A stretch of 64,000 nt of DNA from Planctomycetaceae bacterium (GCA_029243145.1 JAQWSQ010000026.1:1-64000); one strand, 5' to 3'. Positions 1 to 17,848 are shown, counted from the stretch's first letter. Made by a program: numbers and translations. Notes: generated by a model from the letters alone, not told the origin.

Positions 1-1520
1 ATGATGGCGTTGCTCGTGGCGATACCGAAGGAGATACTACCGACTAGAAATATCGTCAGTAATGTTCCGACACTGCGTGAGAAAAGTTTGTGGTTTCCGA
101 TCCAGCGCGCGGCTCGTTTCTTCCAAGGCTCCTTGTAGGCTTTGACCGGTTCGTTGGCCAGCCAGCTTTGTACATCTCCCGCAAGCTGCAAAGCCGTTTG
201 ATAACGGGCATACGGTTTCAAAGAAAGTGCTTTAGCCGCGATTGCCTCAAGTTCTCGTGGCACGTTGGTATTGAGGGAACGCGCACGGACTGTCGGTTCG
301 CTGACAATTTTTCGTAGAAGTTCGGAAACCTGACTGGAGGCCGTCATTGATTCCTGACTTTTCTCATGAGGCGCGCATCCCGTCAAGATGGCGTACAGAA
401 CGGCCCCCAAGCCATACACATCGGTTCGCTCATCGATATCGTCGATTCGTCCAGATGCTTGCTCGGGGGCCATGTAATTTGGAGTCCCCAGAATTTGGCC
501 ATCTTGAGTTTGCTCAACCCCAGTGCCACTACCCGACAAGCCAAGTTCGCATGATTCAATGATTTCATATTCGCCCGTCAACATGGCGAGTCCCCAATCC
601 AGAACAATGACTTGTCCGTAATTATCGAGTGCGACATTTTCAGGTTTGAGATCGCGATGAATAATATTTCGCGAATGAGCATAGGCGATTGCTTGGCAGA
701 CCGAGACAAAGGCATTCAGAAGATTGTGCATCTGCAAAGAGTTTTCTTCACCGTTTTGCCGACGTTCATGGAACTCATCAATGGCGTCTTCGAGAGTCTT
801 TTTGCCGATGTACCGCATGACATAAAACGGTTGAACGGTTTGCTCATCGAGGCCAAATTGATAGAGAGGAACGATACTGGGGTGTTCGAGACGCCCGGTG
901 ATTTCGGCTTTGCGCTGAAAGCGTTTTACCTCGGGTGATTGTGAGGTGGACTCGCGCAGAATCTCTTTGATGGCGACGATTCGTTTCAGTTTCTCGTCGC
1001 GTGCCAGCCAAACGACGCCGAGCCCTCCTTGTCCAATTATTCTCAGAAGTTGAAAACATCCTTCACTCACTCTCCGTTGGAATTGACTGTTGGCTAAATC
1101 ATTAGCCGACAGTCCCAAGACAGTCGCGACTCGTCCATATTGATCGAGTTGCTGCACAATCGATTCTCGGATGCTGGATGTATTGGGATCTGCAGCATCG
1201 AGTCGTTCGAGCACTTTTTGCAGCTTTGAGTCGGCTTTTTCTTCCAGTGATGTGTGTTCATCGTCGGAAAAGAGCCCCTTGCGATTCAAATGATCGTGGA
1301 GCGTGAGGTCGCCGTGGATGGTCCAGTCTCTGACGGCTTGTGCGATTTGTTTGCGCGATAGAACTCCCGATTCAATGAGCGTCAAAGCGAACGCTAAATC
1401 CCGCTCCGGTTTGAACGTTCCTGGAATTCCCTCTGCTGTGATGTAGGTGAAATCTGCGTAGTCTCCACCGTTGGAAGCGATTTGTGTTTGATCGTGGTAT
1501 TGCGGTGATTCAGAGGCCAT
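1..1520 (-). CDS. Serine/threonine protein kinase, C-terminus outside window
   Basis: The reading frame is open from an ATG at 1520 to the left edge, giving 506 visible residues and no stop, so the gene is partial. An N-terminal region of about 155 residues has no recognised fold. The kinase domain follows: glycine loop GQGGLG (163-168), the lysine of AIK (185), catalytic loop HRDLKPEN (288-295), DWG (309-311) where most kinases have DFG, and APE (351-353). A hydrophobic stretch at about 485-501 looks like a single membrane span, so the unseen C-terminus probably lies outside the cytoplasm as a sensor. DWG in place of DFG is frequent in planctomycete Hanks-type kinases and need not mean loss of activity. 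The kinase assignment is firm; substrate and signal are unknown. Confidence 0.93.
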   Translation of the reverse strand, partial: MASESPQYHDQTQIASNGGDYADFTYITAEGIPGTFKPERDLAFALTLIESGVLSRKQIAQAVRDWTIHGDLTLHDHLNRKGLFSDDEHTSLEEKADSKLQKVLERLDAADPNTSSIRESIVQQLDQYGRVATVLGLSANDLANSQFQRRVSEGCFQLLRIIGQGGLGVVWLARDEKLKRIVAIKEILRESTSQSPEVKRFQRKAEITGRLEHPSIVPLYQFGLDEQTVQPFYVMRYIGKKTLEDAIDEFHERRQNGEENSLQMHNLLNAFVSVCQAIAYAHSRNIIHRDLKPENVALDNYGQVIVLDWGLAMLTGEYEIIESCELGLSGSGTGVEQTQDGQILGTPNYMAPEQASGRIDDIDERTDVYGLGAVLYAILTGCAPHEKSQESMTASSQVSELLRKIVSEPTVRARSLNTNVPRELEAIAAKALSLKPYARYQTALQLAGDVQSWLANEPVKAYKEPWKKRAARWIGNHKLFSRSVGTLLTIFLVGSISFGIATSNAI

Positions 1521-1818
1521 GACGTTTGACTTGGATTGGCGATAAAAAATTGTGATTCAGGAAGACTTAATCGCAATGCGGCGTAGTCAATTCTCTTTTT
1601 AGGCACGCATTCCTGATGGCTCTATGACAAATTGCACCAAATGTGAGAAGTTTCTAGGTTTTCGTTAATTATTACGGCACAAACGATCATTTCCGGGGAC
1701 AAAGGATTCTAGAAAGCTTTTGATTTGATCATTTATGATGAAGGGGGTTTGTTGAGACTCCACTAAGCTCGAAGGTCTTACGGCAATTCGTTTATGATTT
1801 GCGACTCGTACAAAATCT

Positions 1819-2106
1819 TCATTTGTGTGGCAATTGCCAGAGATCAATGACGGTCATCATGGGGAGGGGGCGAGTTTTACGAGGCAACCCTACGGCAAAG
1901 ATGGAAGTCACCAGTCCTGCACTGCACAGATACAATGCCGCCCATTCGGGGGGATAAAAGGCGGCTCGATTTTCGCCCCATCCCGTCAACCAGCCCGCAA
2001 TTTCAGGCAAGTCGTCATGGAGTTTAAACTCTAATTGCTGAGTGAACAAAAATACCGAACCCCATAAAAAGACGAACACGCCGACGGCGAGAAAAAATGA
2101 ACGCAT
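1819..2106 (-). CDS. Small two-helix membrane protein, unknown function
   Basis: The protein has 95 residues starting at MRSFFLAVG. The frame stays open upstream to 2202, but the ATG at 2106 is preceded by GGAG at a normal distance and opens directly into a hydrophobic helix (about residues 3-22). A second helix lies at about 65-85, with a short soluble loop between them. I do not recognise the family. It lies between the kinase and leuB and is divergent from leuB. The clean ribosome binding site and helix pattern support a real gene. Confidence 0.6.
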   Translation of the reverse strand: MRSFFLAVGVFVFLWGSVFLFTQQLEFKLHDDLPEIAGWLTGWGENRAAFYPPEWAALYLCSAGLVTSIFAVGLPRKTRPLPMMTVIDLWQLPHK

Positions 2107-2407
2107 AGGAAAACTCCGAGGTCTGTATTTGAATGGTTGTCTCCCGGAACTCGATTCCGGTCGTTCCCTCGAATCATGATCCCTGGATAATGGCACGGTC
2201 ATCCACTGTGTGGATCGGGACTCGTGATAGAAATGGCCATCAGTTTTTGAGAAATGTTCAAACTCAGATCGCTTCCGCTCGCAAAATCGATCCTCGTGGG
2301 ACTTCAGCCAGCAAACAGGCTGGAGAATCAGAGTCGCAAGCGGTAACTTATGCTTCTTGAATGTGACTTAAAACTTCCCTATCGCTTCGTTGAATTGAGG
2401 ATTTTCT
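2107..2407. other. Divergent intergenic region before leuB
   Basis: About 300 bases between a small minus-strand gene and leuB. It should hold the promoters of both. Two small hairpins are visible: CCGGAA-CTCGA-TTCCGG at 2144-2160 and CCAGC-AAACAG-GCTGG at 2308-2323. No leucine-rich leader peptide was seen. A short frame across this stretch has no coding character. Confidence 0.5.
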
Positions 2408-3478
2408 GTGAACGCCAAAATTATTCTCTTGCCCGGTGACGGCATCGGTCCTGAAATCGTCAAACAAGCTCATCGTGTTTTGAAACAAGTGGCTGAAAAA
2501 TTCGGGCATCACTTTGATTACGAAAGTTGTCCGATTGGTGGCTGTGCCATCGATGAGTTTGGCGACCCACTTCCTCCTCAAACATTGGAAGCCTGTCGAA
2601 ATGCCGACGCGATCTTGCTCGGAGCGGTCGGCGGCCCCAAGTGGGACGACCCCACTGCGAAGACTCGACCGGAGAAAGGTTTGCTGGCAATTCGTAAAGA
2701 ATTGGGCTTGTTTGCCAATTTGCGACCGATCAATCCGCATCCCGATTTGCTCGATGCGTCGCCTCTCAAGCGTGACCGACTGGAAGGAACCGATATCTTG
2801 TTTGTCCGTGAGTTGACGGGCGGCATTTATTTTGGTGAATCGGGGCGTAAGCCACACGAATCGGGCGAAGAAGCCTACAACATGATGACGTATAACACGG
2901 GCGAAGTAGAACGCGTCATTCGGCTGGCAGCAAAAGCCGCTCAAGGGCGACGTGGGAAGCTCACCTCGGTCGATAAAGCCAATGTGCTGGAAGTGTCCCG
3001 CTTATGGCGTCAAACTGCCGAGAGAATCATCCAAGAGGAATTTCCTGACCTCGAGTATGAGGTTGTTCTGGTCGACGCGATGGCCATGCATCTGATTTCT
3101 CGACCTGCTGACTTCGATGTCGTTGTCACCGGCAATATGTTCGGCGACATTCTAACCGACGAAGCCTCGATGTTACCCGGGTCATTGGGACTGTTAGCAT
3201 CTGCCTCTTTGGGAACAGATGGTCCTGGACTTTATGAGCCGATTCATGGTTCTGCCCCTGATATTGCCGGGCAGGGAATTGCCAATCCGCTCGCGACAAT
3301 CCTGTCGACAGCCATGCTACTACGACATTCCTTGAAACTCGAAGAGGAAGCAATTGCTATCGAGAATGCTGTTGATGCAGTGATCAAAGCCGGACATCGG
3401 ACAAAAGACATTGCTGCCGGTGGAGACTTTGTCTCGACCACTGAAATGAGCGATTTGGTGCTTGCTCAGTTAGGCTGA
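2408..3478 (+). CDS. leuB: 3-isopropylmalate dehydrogenase
   Basis: Oxidative decarboxylation of 3-isopropylmalate to 2-oxoisocaproate with NAD+, third step of leucine biosynthesis, cytoplasmic dimer. The 356 residues match the usual family length. The N-terminus carries the nucleotide/substrate signature [11 protein letters not shown], followed by the GAVGGPKWD loop, the [10 protein letters not shown] segment, and the C-terminal metal-binding region [19 protein letters not shown]. Residues of the NAD-binding loop, [15 protein letters not shown], are intact. The start is a GTG at 2408 with GAGG at 2397-2400, seven bases upstream. No other leu gene is adjacent, so leucine genes are dispersed. 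Isocitrate and tartrate dehydrogenases are related, but length and motifs favour LeuB. Confidence 0.96.
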
Positions 3479-3511
3479 TCTTAAGACATCGTCCCGAACT
3501 TCCAACAACAA

Positions 3512-5104
3512 CTAAGGAGTGGCGGGAGTTGCTTCTGGCTCTTCTGGTTTGGGGTCATCATCGTCATTGAGTAATGTCCCTGCCAGACCACCAAGAAGAA
3601 GTCCTCCCAAGAGTCCTCCGCCTCCTGCAGCCGCGCCACCACCGGCAAATCCGCATCCGGCACCACCAACTCCCTCAACGGGAGCGAGGGGGGGTTGAGT
3701 CGGAGGGACTAATGTGACGTCGAGCAACAATTCCGTTCCGTCAGGGCCGGGGACGAATTGTACGATTTTGGTTTCTGGCTCTCCATTTTGGAAATTCACA
3801 ACTTGCAGCTCATCACTGATGTCGAGGGAGGATGTCTTTACATCTTCTTTGGCGGTCACCGGACGAGCTTTTTTGGCGGTAAAGCTGAAGACGGCAATTC
3901 CCGCAGGACTTTTGGCAACAAGCGTGTAATTTCCTTCGATAACATCCTGTGTTGTGAATGTTCCGTTGCTATCCGAACGCGTGGTTGCCACGATTCGCCC
4001 ATCCTGAATGAACGAAATATCGGCTTGAACAGCCGGTACAATGGCATTTTTGTTGTTGTAGGTACTCGTGGAAAATCGACGTGTACGACCATAAAGAGTG
4101 CCGTCGTGATGTAAGCGAACCATGTGGTCGTGAATCGAAGTTCCCTGGGCGGTGGCTTTGAAGTTGAGTTGAGCGGGAATATCGAGCAATCGTCGAGTCG
4201 AGGCCAGTTTCGTTTCTTCAGGATAGTCATAGCGATAATCTTGAAGAACTCTCTGAACCGTTTCGTAGTCAGCAGGGTTTGATGCGAGCGAGTTCAACCA
4301 AATCGGAGATCGTGGTTGAGCAATCAATGCGTCTTGAATTCCAGGTTCCGTATATCCGGCTTCTCTCAAATCGCTGTTCGTCGCCAGATAAATTCCGAAG
4401 ACCATCATGCTGGCATCATTGTTGACATGCAGTCCGTATGGCCCAGGTGACAACGAACTGACAGAAAACTGTCCATCAGGACCCAAGGGGACTTCTCGGA
4501 CTTCCTTGCCCATTTGTGAAAAGATAACCGATTTTGGCACCAACGCACCATTCCCCATGATCGAAATACGTCCGCTGAAGACGCGGTCATCATCCATAAA
4601 GAAAGCGTGGATTCGAGTGATTTCTGGAACTTCTTCTTCGAACGCTGCCATTTGATACCAAGTATTCAGCGACTTGCTGCGTTTGGACTCAAATGGATCG
4701 TTGAAGTCTGGTACACGGTATGTTCCGAGTGGGTCAGAGTCTTCAGGAACTTTCGATTCAGACTCATTCTCGGGAGAGGGAGTTGGTGGAGTATTCAGTT
4801 CCTTAGTCTCTGAAAGTGTCTCCGGTTCCAGAGGAGCCTCTGCTGTCAGAGGCGTCAATGGGACGGGATCGATTAACCCAGGGGCCTGAGCAATTTCACT
4901 GGTCGACTTTTGCTGACTCTTGGCGTCGCTTTTTGAGAGCACGCTTTCAGGAAGTAGCTGTGACCAGAGATTATTGTCATCTGGTGTGTTGCCGCTATAC
5001 GCCGTCACCACGGTGACCGTACTGACGGAAAGCAGAACGATTCCGAACAGATAGGATTTGATTCGTGGTGATGAGTGTTGGATGCGTTTACGAGAGTGTG
5101 CCAT
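3512..5104 (-). CDS. Large secreted or anchored protein with carboxypeptidase-regulatory-like repeats, unknown function
   Basis: 530 residues. A membrane anchor or uncleaved signal lies at about 18-36 after a basic N-terminus. A low-complexity Pro/Glu/Thr/Ser region follows, then two stretches that look like beta-sandwich 'carboxypeptidase regulatory-like' units (one around GPDGQFSVSSLSPGPYGLHV, another around SDSNGTFTTQDVIEGNYTL). The C-terminus is unusual: a Gly/Ala/Leu-rich hydrophobic segment resembling a glycine zipper, then a run of Asp residues and a Pro/Glu tail. I do not recognise a named family. The protein probably sits at the cell surface. It is convergent with leuB, with 33 bases between stops. 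Confidence 0.8.
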   Translation of the reverse strand: MAHSRKRIQHSSPRIKSYLFGIVLLSVSTVTVVTAYSGNTPDDNNLWSQLLPESVLSKSDAKSQQKSTSEIAQAPGLIDPVPLTPLTAEAPLEPETLSETKELNTPPTPSPENESESKVPEDSDPLGTYRVPDFNDPFESKRSKSLNTWYQMAAFEEEVPEITRIHAFFMDDDRVFSGRISIMGNGALVPKSVIFSQMGKEVREVPLGPDGQFSVSSLSPGPYGLHVNNDASMMVFGIYLATNSDLREAGYTEPGIQDALIAQPRSPIWLNSLASNPADYETVQRVLQDYRYDYPEETKLASTRRLLDIPAQLNFKATAQGTSIHDHMVRLHHDGTLYGRTRRFSTSTYNNKNAIVPAVQADISFIQDGRIVATTRSDSNGTFTTQDVIEGNYTLVAKSPAGIAVFSFTAKKARPVTAKEDVKTSSLDISDELQVVNFQNGEPETKIVQFVPGPDGTELLLDVTLVPPTQPPLAPVEGVGGAGCGFAGGGAAAGGGGLLGGLLLGGLAGTLLNDDDDPKPEEPEATPATP

Positions 5105-5554
5105 GATACGTGCCGTACGTTCACGGGGTGGGTCAATTACTTAGGTCGTTGAACTTCTATTGTGAACGCTAGAAGTCCTGCCGACTCTGTAAAATGTAGT
5201 CTGATTCCTCAATTGTCTGGGAATCTTGCGTAATAGGGGAACTTACGCGCTTGATATCAATTTTGATTGAGTACCAGATTGTGAGGGTTGTGGCAGTCGT
5301 TCTACGACATACAACGCTTACGTCTTTCAGTAGCACTCAACCCTAGTTTACTTGGTCTTCTCTACAAGTTGAACGATAAAAGTATGGATGGGTAACACTG
5401 AAATGAAAAGAAACTGGGAATTCGTTGGAAGAAAGAATGAGAGTTTCAAAATATCAACAAAATAGCCGTGTTTGTAGACGGGATGTTGCAATTTAGAGTC
5501 ATTTTGAGACTCAATAAGTCGTCAATCATTACGGAGTTAGAGACTTCCATTTCG
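5105..5554. other. Intergenic region between a secreted-protein gene and gltX
   Basis: About 450 AT-richer bases without a credible gene. It should hold the minus-strand promoter of the gene ending at 3512 and the 3' end of the gltX transcript. Small inverted repeats are visible at 5296-5308 (GTCGT-TCT-ACGAC) and 5496-5512 (GAGTC, 7-base loop, GACTC). Neither is a convincing terminator. Confidence 0.5.
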
Positions 5555-7129
5555 TCAGAGCTGCAAGTCTGCTGCTTTTTGGGCCATATCCTGTATCCGT
5601 TCCACACAGCGATTCTGACCGATAATGGCGAGAGTTTCATAAACATCGGGCCCAGAAGCTGCACCCGTAGTACAGATCCTGAGTGCCGGGATTAAGAGTC
5701 CCGCTGAGATCTCTTTCGACTCAGCAAATTGCTGGAGGGAGAGTTCAACTGAACTGGCAGACCATTCGGCCAGGTGTTCAAGTTGTTGCGAATATTCAAG
5801 AAGTAGTTTTGGAACATCGCCTTTGGCGACTCTTTTGCGAAATCCTTTTTCGTCAATATCACTCTCTTGCAACTCGGCTTTGAAGAAGTAATCGACTTCC
5901 AGGATATCTCCGAAGGTGGTTAATCGTTCTCCAAATACGTTGATGACTTGATCAACAAGTTGCCGTTGATTGTCTGAGACTGGTTTCGAAAGGAGCCCTG
6001 ATTGCGTCAAATAGGGCAGGCAAAGATCGGTCTTCTCGGAAGCGGGCAGCTCTCTCATCCAGTGCTGTTGCAAGCTGTCAAGTTTGTCCGGGTCGAGTCC
6101 TGCCGGACTTTTGACGACTCGTTCTAGCGAGAAGTTTTCGATGATCGTTTCACGAGACATCACTTCTGTTTTGTCATCCAGTGACCAACCGAGACGTGCC
6201 AAGGCGTTGAAGACGGCATCAGGCAGGTAACCAATCTTTTCGTAGTATTCGACCATGACAGGATCGAGTCCGTCGGAGCCATCCAGGCCGATGCGTGGAA
6301 AGACTCGATCAGCCGCTTCAAACATTTTTTTGAACTGCGGATTCTTGCGGTACTTGTCGAGCTTTCGTTTACTGAGTTTTTCTTTGGTTCCGGGGGCTGC
6401 AACAAATGGGATATGAGCGAACGTGGGGACGTTCAATCCTAACGCTTGATAAATCAGAATCTGAACGGGAGTGTTCGAGAGATGTTCTTCAGCGCGAATG
6501 ACATGAGTGATTTCGAGGTCGGCATCATCGACTGTTGTTGCGAAGTTATAAAGTGGGGAACCATCGGCACGAGCAATCACTGGGTCAGAAATTAAGCCGC
6601 AATCAAATTCGACATCACCGCGGACGGCATCCTTAAAAGATACCTTCTCGTCGCGCGGGACAAGTAGACGGACAACATGTTTTCGCCCCTCGGCTTCATG
6701 CTCAGAAATTTGTTCGTGGCTCAGTTCGCGTGAACGGCGGATATTGAGGTACTGTTTCTTCTCTGCTTGGGCGGCTTCACGATCCGCCTGAATCACCTCG
6801 GGGGGATCAAAATCTTTATATGCGGAACCTTCGGCCAACAGTTTCTCTAAGGCTTTCTGGTAGATCGCAGTTCGTTCAGATTGAAAGTACGGGCCATGTG
6901 ATCCACCCACTTCGGGGCCTTCGTCCCAATCCATTCCCATCCATTTGAAGGCTTGGAGGATCGGACCCAGAGCCTCGTCCAAGTTGCGTTCTTTGTCGGT
7001 GTCGTCGATTCGTAAAATGAACTGTCCTCCATGCCGGCGAGCATAAAGCCAGTTGAAGAGTGCGGTACGCATTCCCCCAATGTGCATGTAACCGGTTGGA
7101 CTAGGGGCAAATCGTGTGCGGACTGTCAT
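5555..7129 (-). CDS. gltX: Glutamyl-tRNA synthetase
   Basis: Class I aminoacyl-tRNA synthetase charging tRNA-Glu with glutamate. The 524 residues carry the HIGH-type signature [11 protein letters not shown] (9-19), IDDTD at 41-45, and the KMSKS-type loop KLSKR at 251-255. About 27-30 extra residues, rich in Lys, Phe and Asp, separate KLSKR from the conserved 'YY-x2-GYLPDA' segment; in the common bacterial enzyme these lie close together. The helical anticodon-binding region fills the rest. The ATG at 7129 gives the standard [14 protein letters not shown]-terminus. The leader contains a 17-bp tandem repeat. A single-copy enzyme of this type may be non-discriminating and also charge tRNA-Gln, which cannot be judged from this window. 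Confidence 0.96.
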
Positions 7130-7142
7130 TGTCGAAATACTT

Positions 7143-7205
7143 ACTGGGTCAAAATATTTGCTGGGTCAAAATATTTGCTGGATTAAAATATTTGCTGGAT
7201 TAAAG
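7143..7205. repeat. 17-bp tandem repeat, about 3.7 copies, in the gltX leader/promoter
   Basis: Units at 7143-7159, 7160-7176, 7177-7193 and a partial one at 7194-7205 follow the pattern GCTGG(G/A)T(C/T)AAAATATTT. Copies differ only at the G/A and C/T positions, plus one base in the first unit. The array ends 13 bases upstream of the gltX start codon on the minus strand, so it lies in the promoter or 5' untranslated region. Confidence 0.9.
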
Positions 7206-7245
7206 AAGCGACTGGCCGAGAGAGTCGGCACAAGCAATCATCTTA

Positions 7246-8100
7246 GTGCGTGTGCTGTCGAAACCCAAGCCATCCCCATTGACCGATCAGGTTGCCAGTC
7301 CTACGATTCTGGCACCTGTCTCTCCCCCTGAAACTGTTGGTCTTGATATGTTTCGTGCTCGTTGGAAACGTCGATTCCTGCTTCTGTCGGGATTGGGAGT
7401 TGTTTTGGGAGGGCCGCTGATTGCTCTGTTCGTCTCTTTGCAGCATGTGCCAGACTTTTACCAGAAGGCTTTAGAAGACTCGAGAGTCACACCAATCGTT
7501 GCGGAAAACGTCAAGCAACGCACCGAAAAGTTGATTCACGAATATGAGCAGAGTGATTCGGAGATCAATCATTGGACAGAGACCATCAGCGAACAGGAAT
7601 GTAATGCTTGGTTGGCGTTTGAACTTCCTCAGCGATTTCCCGAACTGAACAGTCAGGGTCTCTCAAATCCGAGAGTTCGTTTTGCAGACCACCTGATTTT
7701 GTTGGGTTGTGAGTTTCAGGGAACTCGATTTTCGGGAGTGGTCAGCATCGCCATGCGTCCTCGTCTCTCGTATTCAAACACTCTCACTTTGGAGATTGTG
7801 TTTGCCAAGATCGGTCAGGTTCCACTTCCTCTCAACAGTTTAATCACTGAGGCTCAGGAGTTCGCTCGTAAGGAGAAGATCTCGCTGGAAGGAGTTGTCA
7901 TTGAATGGAACGCGATCTCAAGCGGCACGTATCGCGGTCGATTGACTCTAATGCCCTCACATCCTACTGAGATGCAATTGATCGCCACTTCAATTCGTGT
8001 TTTCGATGAGATGTTGGAATTCAGGGGCGAACGTAGAGTCGAAGAATCGGCAACAACGGACCATCATCAAGTAGAGGGTGATGTTCTGTCGATCAATTGA
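7246..8100 (+). CDS. Single-pass membrane protein, unknown function
   Basis: 284 residues if the GTG at 7246 is used. An ATG at 7348 would give 250 residues starting MFRARWKRR, right before the membrane helix, and is equally plausible because neither start has a strong ribosome binding site. The helix at about residues 44-63 is followed by a mostly extracytoplasmic domain of about 200 residues with alternating hydrophobic pattern suggesting beta structure. No catalytic motif was seen and I do not recognise the family. The 3' end overlaps the convergent gene at 8067-8435 by 34 bases. Confidence 0.75.
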   Translation: MRVLSKPKPSPLTDQVASPTILAPVSPPETVGLDMFRARWKRRFLLLSGLGVVLGGPLIALFVSLQHVPDFYQKALEDSRVTPIVAENVKQRTEKLIHEYEQSDSEINHWTETISEQECNAWLAFELPQRFPELNSQGLSNPRVRFADHLILLGCEFQGTRFSGVVSIAMRPRLSYSNTLTLEIVFAKIGQVPLPLNSLITEAQEFARKEKISLEGVVIEWNAISSGTYRGRLTLMPSHPTEMQLIATSIRVFDEMLEFRGERRVEESATTDHHQVEGDVLSIN

Positions 8101-13987: not shown

Positions 13988-15004
13988 ATGTCACAATCCA
14001 CTCCCGCACAATCTGAATCGCCACTTTCCTGGCAGGAAAAACGCTACCGCTGGGCTGCGATTCCCGGTTGGGGGCTTTCACTGATTCTACATGCCCTGTT
14101 TCTGGTCTTGATGAGTACTCAATTGAAGAGCTGTGGCGGTGTGATCACGGGAACGGGAGAAGGGGAATATCGATCTGTCGGATTGGTTATGAAGGATTCT
14201 GACTCTCCCAATTTCAACGACAACACTCAACAAAACGAATCAGAAGTTGATCAGAAAAACAAAGTCAGCGAGGAGACAGAGGTTCTCGAAGTTCCCGAGA
14301 ATCCACCTGTGGAAATGGCTCTGCCCGAAATGGGGAGCAACCTCATAGGACCGGGAGCGTTAGCACCGGCCATCGGTCTTCCCAATCCTACACCCTCCAA
14401 GGTTCAATCGGCGCCCTCTTCAATTCCTCTTCCCCCAGCATTTGGTCAGGGAGATGGGCCGGTTCGGTTTTTGGGAGCCATTGATGCGGGGAAAAACTTT
14501 GTCTACATCATCGACTGTTCAGGCAGCATGGGTGATTACAATGCCCTCGATTTCGCGAAGGCCGAGTTGCTGGCGTCTTTGCAAGGGGTGAACAACCGAC
14601 AGAAGTTTCAGATTGTCTTCTACAACGAAGAAATTCGACGCTTTCAACTTCCGAATCAGCCGGTGGAGCTCTATCCGGCAACCGACGTGAATCGGAATCG
14701 TGCCAAACGATTTATTGGGAGCGTCTCTCCCTCACTGGGGACTAAACACATGCCGGCATTGCTGGCATCACTGAAATACGAACCCGATGTGATCTTCTTT
14801 CTGACCGACGCCCGTGAACCATCCTTGAGTACGAGCGAACTTGCCGACATTAAAAAACAAAACCACAATGGTGCTCGTGTTCATTGCATCGAGTTTGGGG
14901 TCGGTCACGAGTTGCCCGGCGACAATTTCCTGAAAAGACTGGCGCGTCAAAATAAAGGGACATATAGCTATCGCGATGTCACGAAACTGGGGGGAGATCG
15001 GTGA
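13988..15004 (+). CDS. VWA-domain protein with TonB-like membrane anchor
   Basis: 338 residues. A short cytoplasmic N-terminus is followed by one membrane helix at about 28-46 that holds SLILH, i.e. Ser31 and His35 in the SxxxH pattern that TonB uses to contact ExbB/ExbD. A Pro/Glu/Asn-rich periplasmic linker (about 55-160) leads to a von Willebrand factor A domain with a complete MIDAS metal site: DCSGS (Asp176, Ser178, Ser180), Thr252 and Asp274. So the domain order is TonB-like anchor, stalk, VWA, where TonB itself would carry its receptor-binding domain. It heads a five-gene operon with ExbB and two ExbDs, and its stop overlaps the next start by four bases. The role as an energised arm is inference. 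Confidence 0.88.
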   Translation: MSQSTPAQSESPLSWQEKRYRWAAIPGWGLSLILHALFLVLMSTQLKSCGGVITGTGEGEYRSVGLVMKDSDSPNFNDNTQQNESEVDQKNKVSEETEVLEVPENPPVEMALPEMGSNLIGPGALAPAIGLPNPTPSKVQSAPSSIPLPPAFGQGDGPVRFLGAIDAGKNFVYIIDCSGSMGDYNALDFAKAELLASLQGVNNRQKFQIVFYNEEIRRFQLPNQPVELYPATDVNRNRAKRFIGSVSPSLGTKHMPALLASLKYEPDVIFFLTDAREPSLSTSELADIKKQNHNGARVHCIEFGVGHELPGDNFLKRLARQNKGTYSYRDVTKLGGDR

Positions 15005-16068
15005 CCCCTGCGAATCAGAAATTTCTTGTGTTTCTGAGTGTCTGTCTCTTCTTGATGAAGAGTATGTCACCGCACGCGGCTGCACAAAACTCATCGCTGA
15101 CACAAGCCGGGAATTACCCCGATCACATCATGATTCAGCCGAAATACAGCACCGGCAAGAAACGGATCCGCTGTCGGATTCTTGATTACACAGGTGCCGT
15201 AGTCACCGTCCATTTGATGGAAGGGGACACTCGCAAAACCTACGCGACGAGCGAGGTGACCCGTGTGGAAACTCCGCAATCTGCTCAACATCGCAAGGGG
15301 TTAACGCTCTTAGACGCTGGAGAAATTCCGCAAGCCGAAGAGCAACTCCTGGAAGCTTACCGACTCGATCCTCGAGAATGGGTGCAGCGAGAGATTCTCG
15401 CGCATCTCGTGCGGGCGGCTTTGCAACGTGGTGATTATGTCACGGCGGCCACTCGTATCGAAAAGATATTCTCTAGCGACGAACACACTCAACATCTGGA
15501 ATTATTGCCGGCGATTTGGACAACCAAAGTTCTCAATCCCAGTCAGATTCGTAATGGTGCGGAATTGCTGGTTTCTGATTCTGACATCGCGCAGTTTGTG
15601 GGGGCTTCCATTTTGCTCGAACAGTCCGGCTTTGAAGAGACAGCAAAGACTGCCTTGCTGACCATTCAGACTTCCGGTCATCGACGTTTAAAACTTTTGG
15701 CTGAGGCTCAGTTGTGGCGACTGGAGTTTGCCAATAGCGAATTTCCTGTTTACACCATCGATAAATGGAAGAGACATATCGAGCGTTTGCCGACCGAGTT
15801 GCGAGGCGGGCCTTATTTTCTGTTGGCACGCGCGTATCAATTCAAACTGTTGCGTGATGATGCCGCATTGACCTATTTGCGAATTCCGGTGTTGTATGAT
15901 CATGATCGATTACTGGCTGCAGAAGCCTCTTTGGCGGCTGCCGATGTGTTACGGTCTGGGGGACGTAATCAGGAATCTCTGACAATTTATCGAGAACTCG
16001 TTGCTAGGTATCAGGGTACGGAAGCCGCACGGAAAGCGGATGCTATCCTAAAGTCATTCGCCGAATAA
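15001..16068 (+). CDS. Secreted TPR-like helical-repeat protein
   Basis: 355 residues, GTG start overlapping the upstream stop by four bases (GTGA), which implies translational coupling to the VWA gene. A signal peptide lies at about 8-29, ending near PHAAAQ. After a short beta-rich stretch (about 45-80), helical pairs typical of tetratricopeptide repeats run to the end, for example GEIPQAEEQLLEAYRLDP and the C-terminal GRNQESLTIYRELVARY. TPR proteins bind other proteins, so this is probably a periplasmic scaffold for the ExbB/ExbD/VWA machine. No catalytic motif seen. Confidence 0.8.
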   Translation: MTPANQKFLVFLSVCLFLMKSMSPHAAAQNSSLTQAGNYPDHIMIQPKYSTGKKRIRCRILDYTGAVVTVHLMEGDTRKTYATSEVTRVETPQSAQHRKGLTLLDAGEIPQAEEQLLEAYRLDPREWVQREILAHLVRAALQRGDYVTAATRIEKIFSSDEHTQHLELLPAIWTTKVLNPSQIRNGAELLVSDSDIAQFVGASILLEQSGFEETAKTALLTIQTSGHRRLKLLAEAQLWRLEFANSEFPVYTIDKWKRHIERLPTELRGGPYFLLARAYQFKLLRDDAALTYLRIPVLYDHDRLLAAEASLAAADVLRSGGRNQESLTIYRELVARYQGTEAARKADAILKSFAE

Positions 16069-16104
16069 TAAACCGCACACGCGGACTCACGAAGGATCGA
16101 ATAC

Positions 16105-16944
16105 GTGTTGAATCAATTTTCTAAGAACAAACGGGTTAGCGCTCGCAGGTCGTTGTTCGTTCTGCTCTCGACGCTCATTTGCTTATCGGTCCCGGTACTC
16201 GCTTGGGCGCAAGAGGGCGGTGGAGAAGAAAGCGTTTCCGCTCCCAAAGTCGATCTCCGTGAACTGGCTTTCGCTGGTGGATATGTGGGGATGATCATTG
16301 CCGGGATGAGTGTCATTCTGATTGCGTTGATCATCGAACATATGTTGACAATTCGCCGAGGCGCTTTGATGCCGAGTGGATTAGCGCAACAGGTTCACGG
16401 CATGATAGCTCAGAAACAATTCAAGCAAGCCGAAGAAGTCTGCCGGCAAAATCCGAGTCTACTCGGAGAAATATTACAAGCTGGACTTTCGGAAGTCGGA
16501 ATCGATTACGCGGCCATTGAAAAAGGGATGGAAGATTCGAGCATCCAACAGTCGTCGCGCTTGTTACGGAAAATCGAATATCTGTCGGTGATTGGTTCCA
16601 TTGCACCAATGTTGGGATTGTTGGGGACTGTCTGGGGAATGATCCTCGCGTTTCTGGAATTTGAATCGAAGGCCAATCCTCAAGTCTCAGAGTTGGCGCC
16701 CGGCATTTATAAAGCTCTGGTGACGACTTTGATGGGATTGAGCGTTGCGGTGCCGGCAGTCGCATCGTTTGCGATTTTTAGAAATCGTGTTGATGGGCTG
16801 GTCGCGGAAGCGTCACTGCTGGCCGAACATGTCTTCGCCGACTACAAGCGAGCCTTAGTCTCTTCTCGCCGGGGACAAAAAACCTCTCGACCCGCTGCCA
16901 ACCCCGGCATTCCACCCGTTGTGCCTGAACGGGAATCACGCTGA
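16105..16944 (+). CDS. exbB: ExbB/TolQ/MotA-family proton channel protein
   Basis: 279 residues with GTG start and AAGGA at 16092-16096. A signal-like N-terminal helix (about 12-32, ending AWAQ) precedes the three ExbB-type helices: about 55-75, then after a cytoplasmic helical region about 165-190 (the SVIGSIAPMLGLLGTVWGM signature) and 205-230. The signature GLLGTVWGM and the TLMGLSVAVPA segment form the pore-lining part that, with ExbD, conducts protons. It directly precedes two exbD genes. An extra N-terminal signal helix is common in planctomycete homologues. Confidence 0.92.
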   Translation: MLNQFSKNKRVSARRSLFVLLSTLICLSVPVLAWAQEGGGEESVSAPKVDLRELAFAGGYVGMIIAGMSVILIALIIEHMLTIRRGALMPSGLAQQVHGMIAQKQFKQAEEVCRQNPSLLGEILQAGLSEVGIDYAAIEKGMEDSSIQQSSRLLRKIEYLSVIGSIAPMLGLLGTVWGMILAFLEFESKANPQVSELAPGIYKALVTTLMGLSVAVPAVASFAIFRNRVDGLVAEASLLAEHVFADYKRALVSSRRGQKTSRPAANPGIPPVVPERESR

Positions 16945-17372
16945 TGCGATTACCGGCTCGAAGCCGACAACTCGGTGTGACGGTTGACATTACACCGCTG
17001 ATTGATGTGATCTTTCTGTTGATCATTTTCTTTCTGGCGGCTAGTCATTTTGTACGTAATGAATCTCGGGACGAAGTCGCATTGCCGGAAGCCGTGACCG
17101 GGGAAGACGAACAGAAAACTTCCAACAGTCGATTGATCGTCACGGTGACTGCCGATGGGCAGTATAAAATTGGTGGCGAATTCCTCAGCTTGAAGGAAAT
17201 CGAACCTTTGTTATTTGACGGCATGGCCAAAGATGGTGAGAAGTTTGAAGTTCGTATTCGCGGCGACAAAACAGTCTTGTTTCGCTCGATCGAACCATTG
17301 ATGGTGGAATGTGCCCGAGCGGGAGTCACACAAATCAAGTTTGGTGCTTTGCCGGGAGGATCGACTCCATGA
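16944..17372 (+). CDS. exbD: ExbD/TolR-family protein, first copy
   Basis: 142 residues. One membrane helix near the N-terminus carries the proton-relaying aspartate, Asp21, in TPLIDVIFLLIIFF; the rest is the periplasmic ExbD/TolR fold. The ATG at 16944 overlaps the exbB stop by one base (TGATG). With ExbB it would form the stator that turns the proton gradient into motion of a TonB-like arm. Two non-identical ExbD genes in one operon suggest a heteromeric stator. Confidence 0.92.
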   Translation: MRLPARSRQLGVTVDITPLIDVIFLLIIFFLAASHFVRNESRDEVALPEAVTGEDEQKTSNSRLIVTVTADGQYKIGGEFLSLKEIEPLLFDGMAKDGEKFEVRIRGDKTVLFRSIEPLMVECARAGVTQIKFGALPGGSTP

Positions 17373-17848
17373 AGATTCCCAGTTTTACCCGGCATGACGA
17401 GCGGGATGAAGTGATGTCGATGACGCCGATGATTGACGTTGTGTTTCTGTTGCTGATCTTCTTTGTCTGTGCGTCCATCGGACAACAGAAGGAATTGCTG
17501 CTTTCGACACCCATTTCGGGAGCTGGCGTGAAGTCGGAGACACCTCCCGAAGATCTGTTACAGCCGAAACCAGATCGCGCTTATCTTAAACTGTTACGCA
17601 TCGGTGGCGAAACCGTGACCGACTTGAATGGAACAATGATTGAAGAACCGGGACGTGTGCGTGAACTGTTAATCGGTCTGGCGACAGTCGCTCCCGATGT
17701 GCCGGTGGTGATTGATACCGCCGATGATGTGCCGTTGGGGGATATGATCGCGTTGTACGATTTGTGTCGTTCGGTCGATTTCGAGACGATCAACTTCGCC
17801 ATTGATCCACCAGAACAAAGACCGGTGAAAGCGAAGCCTGTACCTTGA
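17369..17848 (+). CDS. exbD: ExbD/TolR-family protein, second copy
   Basis: 159 residues from the ATG at 17369, which overlaps the previous stop (ATGA) and has GGGAGGA about eight bases upstream. A start further upstream (17309) is open but would lie inside the first exbD. Asp23 sits in the membrane helix within TPMIDVVFLLLIFF. The periplasmic part differs from the first copy and has a longer acidic/proline linker after the helix. Last gene of the operon; no clear terminator follows. Confidence 0.92.
   Translation: MKIPSFTRHDERDEVMSMTPMIDVVFLLLIFFVCASIGQQKELLLSTPISGAGVKSETPPEDLLQPKPDRAYLKLLRIGGETVTDLNGTMIEEPGRVRELLIGLATVAPDVPVVIDTADDVPLGDMIALYDLCRSVDFETINFAIDPPEQRPVKAKPVP

Follow-up and report, generated by a model that had tools for sequence, protein, structure and literature searches.

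The window analysed here is a stretch of 64,000 nucleotides from a Planctomycetaceae bacterium (GCA_029243145.1, JAQWSQ010000026.1:1-64000). Five co-directional genes on its + strand, at positions 13988–17848, encode in order a protein with a von Willebrand factor A (VWA) domain, an exported tetratricopeptide-repeat (TPR) protein, an ExbB and two ExbDs (ExbD-a and ExbD-b). The features of this operon, numbered from the first base of the window, are as follows.

13988–15004, + strand: VWA force-transducer candidate, 338 residues, with a cytoplasmic tail, one transmembrane (TM) helix, a disordered Pro/Glu/Gly linker and a VWA domain.
14066–14128, + strand: TM helix with Ser31-x3-His35, about residues 27–47, the sole membrane helix of the VWA protein.
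14168–14194, + strand: juxtamembrane D-box-like segment, residues 61–69 (YRSVGLVMK), with R-x-V-G-[IL] conserved.
14306–14356, + strand: second conserved linker motif, P-x4-L-P-x7-G-x-G, residues 107–123; the region is of low complexity, which makes its alignment less certain.
14468–14992, + strand: VWA domain with a complete metal-ion-dependent adhesion site (MIDAS; D176, S178, S180, T252 and D274), each residue in 61 of 61 sequences.
15001–16068, + strand: exported TPR protein, 355 residues, GTG start, 4-base overlap with the VWA gene.
16105–16944, + strand: ExbB/TolQ-like motor subunit, 279 residues, GTG start after a 36-base gap, signal-like segment at the N terminus.
16944–17372, + strand: ExbD-a, 142 residues, TM Asp21, 1-base overlap with the ExbB gene.
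17369–17848, + strand: ExbD-b, 159 residues, TM Asp23, ATG start, 4-base ATGA overlap.

Open reading frame (ORF) calls and Pfam matches bear out the five genes and coordinates given in an earlier note on this DNA. The first two genes overlap by 4 bases, a 36-base gap follows the TPR gene, and the last two junctions are overlaps of 1 and 4 bases; the overlaps of 1–4 bases that the note had reported at three junctions thus stand, while the 36 bases that it had taken for a fourth overlap are a gap before the ExbB gene. The start of ExbD-b is most likely the ATG at 17369, with GGGAGG just upstream, a longer ORF from 17309 being less likely. Pfam recognizes the VWA protein as VWA_3 (2.2e-6, above cut-off), ExbB as MotA_ExbB (2.8e-29) and ExbD-a and ExbD-b as ExbD (1.9e-20 and 6.6e-13, respectively). 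In an NCBIfam search none of the five proteins reached a curated equivalog cut-off, and a promoter and terminator scan gave scores no better than those of shuffles.

Ser31 and His35 lie in the sole membrane helix of the VWA protein, at the positions first claimed for them. For comparison, 60 homologue loci from the same taxonomic class were fetched and their VWA proteins were aligned with that of the window (n = 61, with identities to the window protein as low as 27%); retrieval used the full-length VWA protein, and the sequences are related, so that the counts do not represent independent events. Ser31 and His35 are each present in 60 of the 61 proteins, preceded by Trp28 in 51 and Pro26 in 48, while the remaining core columns of the helix are hydrophobic yet variable (mean entropy 2.71 bits). 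The SxxxH pattern falls within an N-terminal hydrophobic segment at 58 of the 60 homologue loci, compared with 5 of 203 unrelated control ORFs from the same loci that have such a segment, at the corresponding place. It is also found in 14 of 15 VWA ORFs from other families of the phylum, outside the class. This pattern supports the assignment of a TonB/TolA-like anchor, by comparison with E. coli, where TonB Ser16/His20 contact ExbB Ser34/Trp38 in electron cryo-microscopy (PMC12215075). An AlphaFold2 model of the VWA protein from a two-row alignment was poor (mean pLDDT 38, pTM 0.27); the helix at 28–47 is its best-scored part, and its succession of strands and helices could fit a VWA fold.

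The same helix is followed by Cys49 in 22 of 57 sequences, as might be expected if the segment were the signal peptide of a lipoprotein, or a signal anchor of the usual type, in which the Ser/His pair is coincidental. Set against this, Ser and His are far better kept than Cys, a lipobox-like pattern occurs in just 8 of the 61 N-termini and is absent from the window protein, where a Lys precedes Ser48-Cys49, and cleavage at the Cys would cut off the conserved His. The conservation pattern and the missing lipobox strongly disfavour the lipoprotein reading, which we regard as very improbable.

Residues of the putative motor are well kept too. ExbB S69, T175, T208 and P217, the equivalents of E. 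coli Ser34, Thr148, Thr181 and Pro190, are invariant in all 33 VWA-linked ExbBs, and the TM Asp is retained in 30 of 30 ExbD-a (D21) and 30 of 30 ExbD-b (D23) sequences, ExbD-b being clearly distinct from ExbD-a. The nearest solved relatives of ExbB are a TolQ (PDB code 9avi, the best PDB match at 3.1e-15) and an ExbB (PDB code 5sv0). These features support the prediction that a complete proton motor is encoded beside the VWA gene. They also bear on the place of the VWA protein within it, since a second family, the TPH-vWA/TolQ type (PMC12204202, Fig. 4c,d), likewise sets a VWA domain on a TolQ-family motor, but there the Asp that binds protons is on the VWA helix, which takes the place of TolR/ExbD at the centre of the pore. 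The helix of the window protein (27–47) has no acidic residue and carries the Ser/His pair, and the operon encodes two intact ExbDs with the invariant Asp. The lack of a helix Asp and the presence of two ExbDs rule out such a pore role for practical purposes, and we attach next to no probability to it.

The earlier proposal of a full MIDAS is confirmed at D176, S178, S180, T252 and D274; M181 and G324 are likewise invariant in the VWA alignment (61/61). All 28 members of alignment set A1 match VWA_2, and for the window protein Pfam returns VWA matches only, with no C-terminal TonB_C or TonB_2 domain. By profile, the nearest solved VWA domains are those of inter-alpha-trypsin inhibitor heavy chains (PDB code 9c4f, 7e-18) and of a bacterial VWA protein (PDB code 4fx5, 3.2e-11). 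The invariance of the complete MIDAS indicates that the predicted metal-dependent binding of a ligand by this domain is under selection.

Helix and VWA domain are joined in the window protein by a linker of 111 residues (13.5% Pro, 9.9% Glu and 11.7% Gly), for which the earlier description as a Pro/Glu-rich stalk is fair; among the homologues, the median distance from the end of the TM helix to the VWA domain is 126 residues. Within this otherwise variable linker, residues 62–66 form a conserved island: the R-x-V-G-[IL] sequence sits a median of 30 residues past the motif His, with G65 in 48 and I/L66 in 52 of 60 sequences. The SVTMV segment of TonB and the SIDAVMV segment of TolA lie at a similar distance, and the VWA-protein segment resembles both at the level of sequence. 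In TonB this segment, the D-box, is gripped by an ExbD dimer (PMC10907165). The second linker motif comprises P107, L112-P113 and G121-x-G123, of which P113 is nearly invariant. It might be taken for a docking site for the TPR protein; we have dropped this idea because the motif occurs both with and without a TPR gene, including in a subgroup that lacks one.

The TPR protein has a signal peptide, a small β domain (about residues 41–90) and then an α-solenoid, a layout common to its relatives. Its model (mean pLDDT 58.5) shows strands at 55–61, 67–74 and 81–89 followed by helices; compared with the PDB, it gave no match below an E value of 0.001, the nearest structures being generic TPR proteins. 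Pfam TPR models score below their curated cut-offs in the window protein but match many relatives. R125, W127, P170, W173, S203, A234 and G270 are invariant in the family. Profile matches include designed TPR proteins and, for the C-terminal repeats of the protein, a modest match to the TPR domain of E. coli CpoB (PDB code 6g5s, 3.6e-6), which can reflect general TPR similarity. The analogy with CpoB makes it probable that this exported protein serves as an adaptor in the periplasm.

Linkage of the VWA gene to the motor genes recurs elsewhere. Of 49 best-per-genome VWA homologue loci, 30 have an ExbB gene in their neighbourhood (up to 8 kb on one flank and 4 kb on the opposite one); because the genomes hold just 4–12 ExbB-family genes each, chance linkage is expected in a few per cent of loci at most. 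The common order is VWA-TPR-ExbB-ExbD-ExbD, one family has ExbB-ExbD-ExbD-VWA, and the arrangements are seen in many genera; the cluster is also found in other families of the phylum, beyond the class. Both the conservation of the anchor pair and the recurrence of the linkage had been named earlier as points on which the idea could be checked, and both leave it standing. In one family (f4; L073, L075 and L078) VWA, TPR and ExbB genes occur together, and no ExbD was found adjoining ExbB. Only one near relative turned up when genome contigs were scanned with the VWA protein alone.

Several further loci carry the same anchor. In the window's own genome, an orphan VWA protein (L096; G000:C53, 4738–5688, − strand) has an SxxxH helix (GISTILHAVIF) and no ExbB nearby, and orphan VWA proteins with this anchor are found in some other genomes too. 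At another locus (L145; G251:C40:30694-43569), a tandem pair of VWA genes, each with SxxxH, is followed by TPR and ExbB genes and three ExbD-like ORFs.

An arrangement of this kind has been described. SHLS-type vWA force transducers (the Tichowtungia vWA family) were reported in June 2025 by Williams-Jones et al. (PMC12204202, Fig. 4a,b) as a class that occurs in Planctomycetes and is marked by a conserved His, a TPR gene and two TolR-like genes; in the published AlphaFold3 complexes, the conserved His lies at the edge of the motor and makes the contact. The suggestion that the operon encodes an unnamed energy-transducing system has thus been overtaken, and because of that report the hypothesis is best seen as an independent rediscovery. 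The window shares with the class a Ser/His TM helix (the His of the paper is also residue 35), a disordered linker of about 100 residues, a C-terminal VWA fold, an adjacent TPR gene, and one TolQ-like and two different TolR-like genes. It differs in gene order, the VWA gene opening the operon where the paper has it 'often found downstream', and in keeping just S and H, the first half of SHLS. Judged by these sequence features, the operon is a clear member of the vWA transducer class predicted in 2025: every testable feature is present, linker and motor-box-like segment included, except the second half of SHLS. MIDAS is not mentioned in that paper (0 occurrences), and we add to it the depth of conservation, the invariant MIDAS, the motor partner residues, the paralogues that stand as orphans and the fact that Ton/Tol parts appear to be absent.

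The anchor pair, the motor residues and the conserved linkage together support the earlier reading of a proton-driven VWA transducer, and we consider it likely that the operon encodes a TonB/TolA-like force-transduction module with a transducer ending in a VWA domain. In such a module, ExbB would form a pentamer around a central ExbD-a/ExbD-b dimer, presumably a heterodimer, with protons carried on ExbD Asp21/Asp23 past ExbB Thr175/Thr208. The VWA helix would dock outside an ExbB subunit via Ser31/His35, and the juxtamembrane strand would probably be gripped by the periplasmic domains of the ExbDs, like the TonB D-box. Motor cycles driven by the proton-motive force might then pull on, or alter the reach of, the linker of ~110 residues, while the terminal VWA domain would hold a partner in the periplasm or outer membrane via the MIDAS metal and the TPR protein would probably act as the periplasmic adaptor. 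Complex formation, force transmission, the ligand, the TPR role and the ExbD heterodimer are what we infer here from sequence and analogy.

The docking step could also serve signalling. The VWA protein might dock via Ser/His as a sensor or gate without transmitting force, tension or ligand at the VWA domain opening or shutting the proton pathway while the ExbDs or the TPR protein do the work. In E. coli, signalling has been proposed to run from TonB Ser16/His20 to ExbB Pro190 (PMC12215075), and P217, the equivalent of this proline, is invariant in VWA-linked ExbBs; furthermore, the TM contact may serve only to localize TonB, according to the D-box study (PMC10907165). On the other hand, a pulling arm would account no less well for the D-box-like segment and the long Pro/Glu/Gly linker, and the placing of a large ligand-binding domain at the C-terminal end of such a tether points to mechanical reach. 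We consider a sensor or gate unlikely.

Several observations weigh against the force-transduction reading. The second half of the SHLS motif (S-x3-H-x6-L-x3-S) is not kept in the window protein, which has M at position 42 and L at position 46; across the alignment position 42 is L in 30 of 61 sequences, and L, V and F are the most frequent residues at position 46. According to the literature, 'many', not all, class members carry SHLS (PMC12204202), and its Leu and Ser are also poorly conserved in Ton (PMC12215075). The equivalent of E. coli ExbB Trp38 is V, I, A, L or M in all 33 VWA-linked ExbBs and Trp38 is also absent from the other planctomycete ExbBs examined; because it is not conserved, the contact network would differ in detail from that of E. 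coli. The D-box-like segment is missing from the ExbB-ExbD-ExbD-VWA subgroup. Several SxxxH-VWA proteins lack a nearby ExbB and would therefore need a motor encoded at another place. Some loci keep VWA-TPR with the motor apart; at one of them (L107, genome G025), an ExbB-ExbD-ExbD set follows at a distance of about 11 kb downstream. A literature search, covering few subscription papers and no bioRxiv preprints, found no experimental study of the class, and no phenotype is reported for it in the literature searched. Profile searches of the window's genome (a draft of 232 contigs, 97.6% complete) gave no match to TonB_C, TonB_2, Plug (TonB-dependent receptor) or TolB_N; this counts in favour of the reading, although in a draft of this completeness it is no proof of absence; control genomes matched where expected, except for TonB_2, which was positive only in Bacteroides. 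The genome has one OmpA-type domain, outside the operon, and six MotA/ExbB-family genes, and TonB_C is found in 14 of 59 relatives. On one contig (G027:C123, about 15.2–20.7 kb), a TonB_C gene and a VWA homologue are some 5 kb apart.

Comparison with the established systems shows both likenesses and differences. With E. coli Ton, the module shares the ExbB channel threonines, the ExbD Asp, the Ser/His anchor pair, a D-box-like strand and a proline-containing linker; it differs in its two different ExbDs, in the lack of a detected receptor and at ExbB Trp38. With TolQ-TolR-TolA and CpoB it shares a TolQ-like ExbB, the Ser/His anchor and an exported TPR partner weakly matching CpoB, whereas it differs from Tol-Pal in that the genome has no TolB_N match, the sole OmpA-type domain is outside the operon and a TolA C-terminal domain is lacking. 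As its role in the cell we favour maintenance or coupling of the envelope, of the Tol kind, over TonB-type import, a weak preference held because no TonB-dependent receptor was detected in the genome; our confidence in any particular role is low. Gliding or surface adhesion, with the VWA domain reaching an outer-membrane or surface adhesin, has been suggested for the transducer class by analogy with the myxobacterial gliding machinery (PMC12204202), and adhesion commonly involves VWA domains with a full MIDAS. In the window, however, the operon adjoins no gene for gliding, an adhesin or a surface protein, the VWA domain is placed on the periplasmic side of the inner membrane and near-universality in the taxonomic class (a VWA match in 56 of 59 relative genomes, many of the weaker ones to the VWA domain only) better suits a housekeeping function, so that this role appears improbable.

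If the force-transduction reading is true, energization of the outer membrane by Ton and Tol would be one case of a general design in which the same proton motor is fitted with unrelated arm ends, and planctomycetes, most of which here have no recognizable TonB, would use a metal-dependent VWA grip. We offer a further proposal tentatively, and as one that we hold to be rather unlikely: in planctomycetes without detectable TonB and TolB, VWA transducers might be the main or only proton-driven envelope arms, a grip between the MIDAS metal and an acidic residue of the partner might replace β-strand addition, one motor might serve several arms including the orphans, and the two ExbDs might build an asymmetric grip into the motor. 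The system is compact (five genes) and widespread, and it yields specific mutational predictions at H35, D176, D21/D23 and S69.

The ExbB of the window also gives weak matches to ZorA of the Zorya ZorA/ZorB system, which shares a motor of the MotA/ExbB family. The window protein is short and lacks the ZorA tail, no Zorya effector genes are present and the other four proteins have no PADLOC match; we have rejected a defence role on these grounds. Upstream of the operon lies an NAD-dependent epimerase-like gene on the opposite strand, with nothing convincing downstream until about 19.4 kb, and the neighbouring genes suggest no larger operon. Elsewhere in the genome, an ExbB-ExbD pair (L101; G000:C9, 177–2343, − strand) adjoins a 305-residue protein that has a single TM segment, near its N terminus, but lacks SxxxH, possibly another unusual transducer. 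A second ExbB-ExbD-ExbD cluster (L099; G000:C89:6365-18224, locus 575–7593) has no VWA gene; ahead of it are a TPR-subunit paralogue (E value 3e-9) and a 1219-residue protein, and it is possibly a sister system with a different arm.

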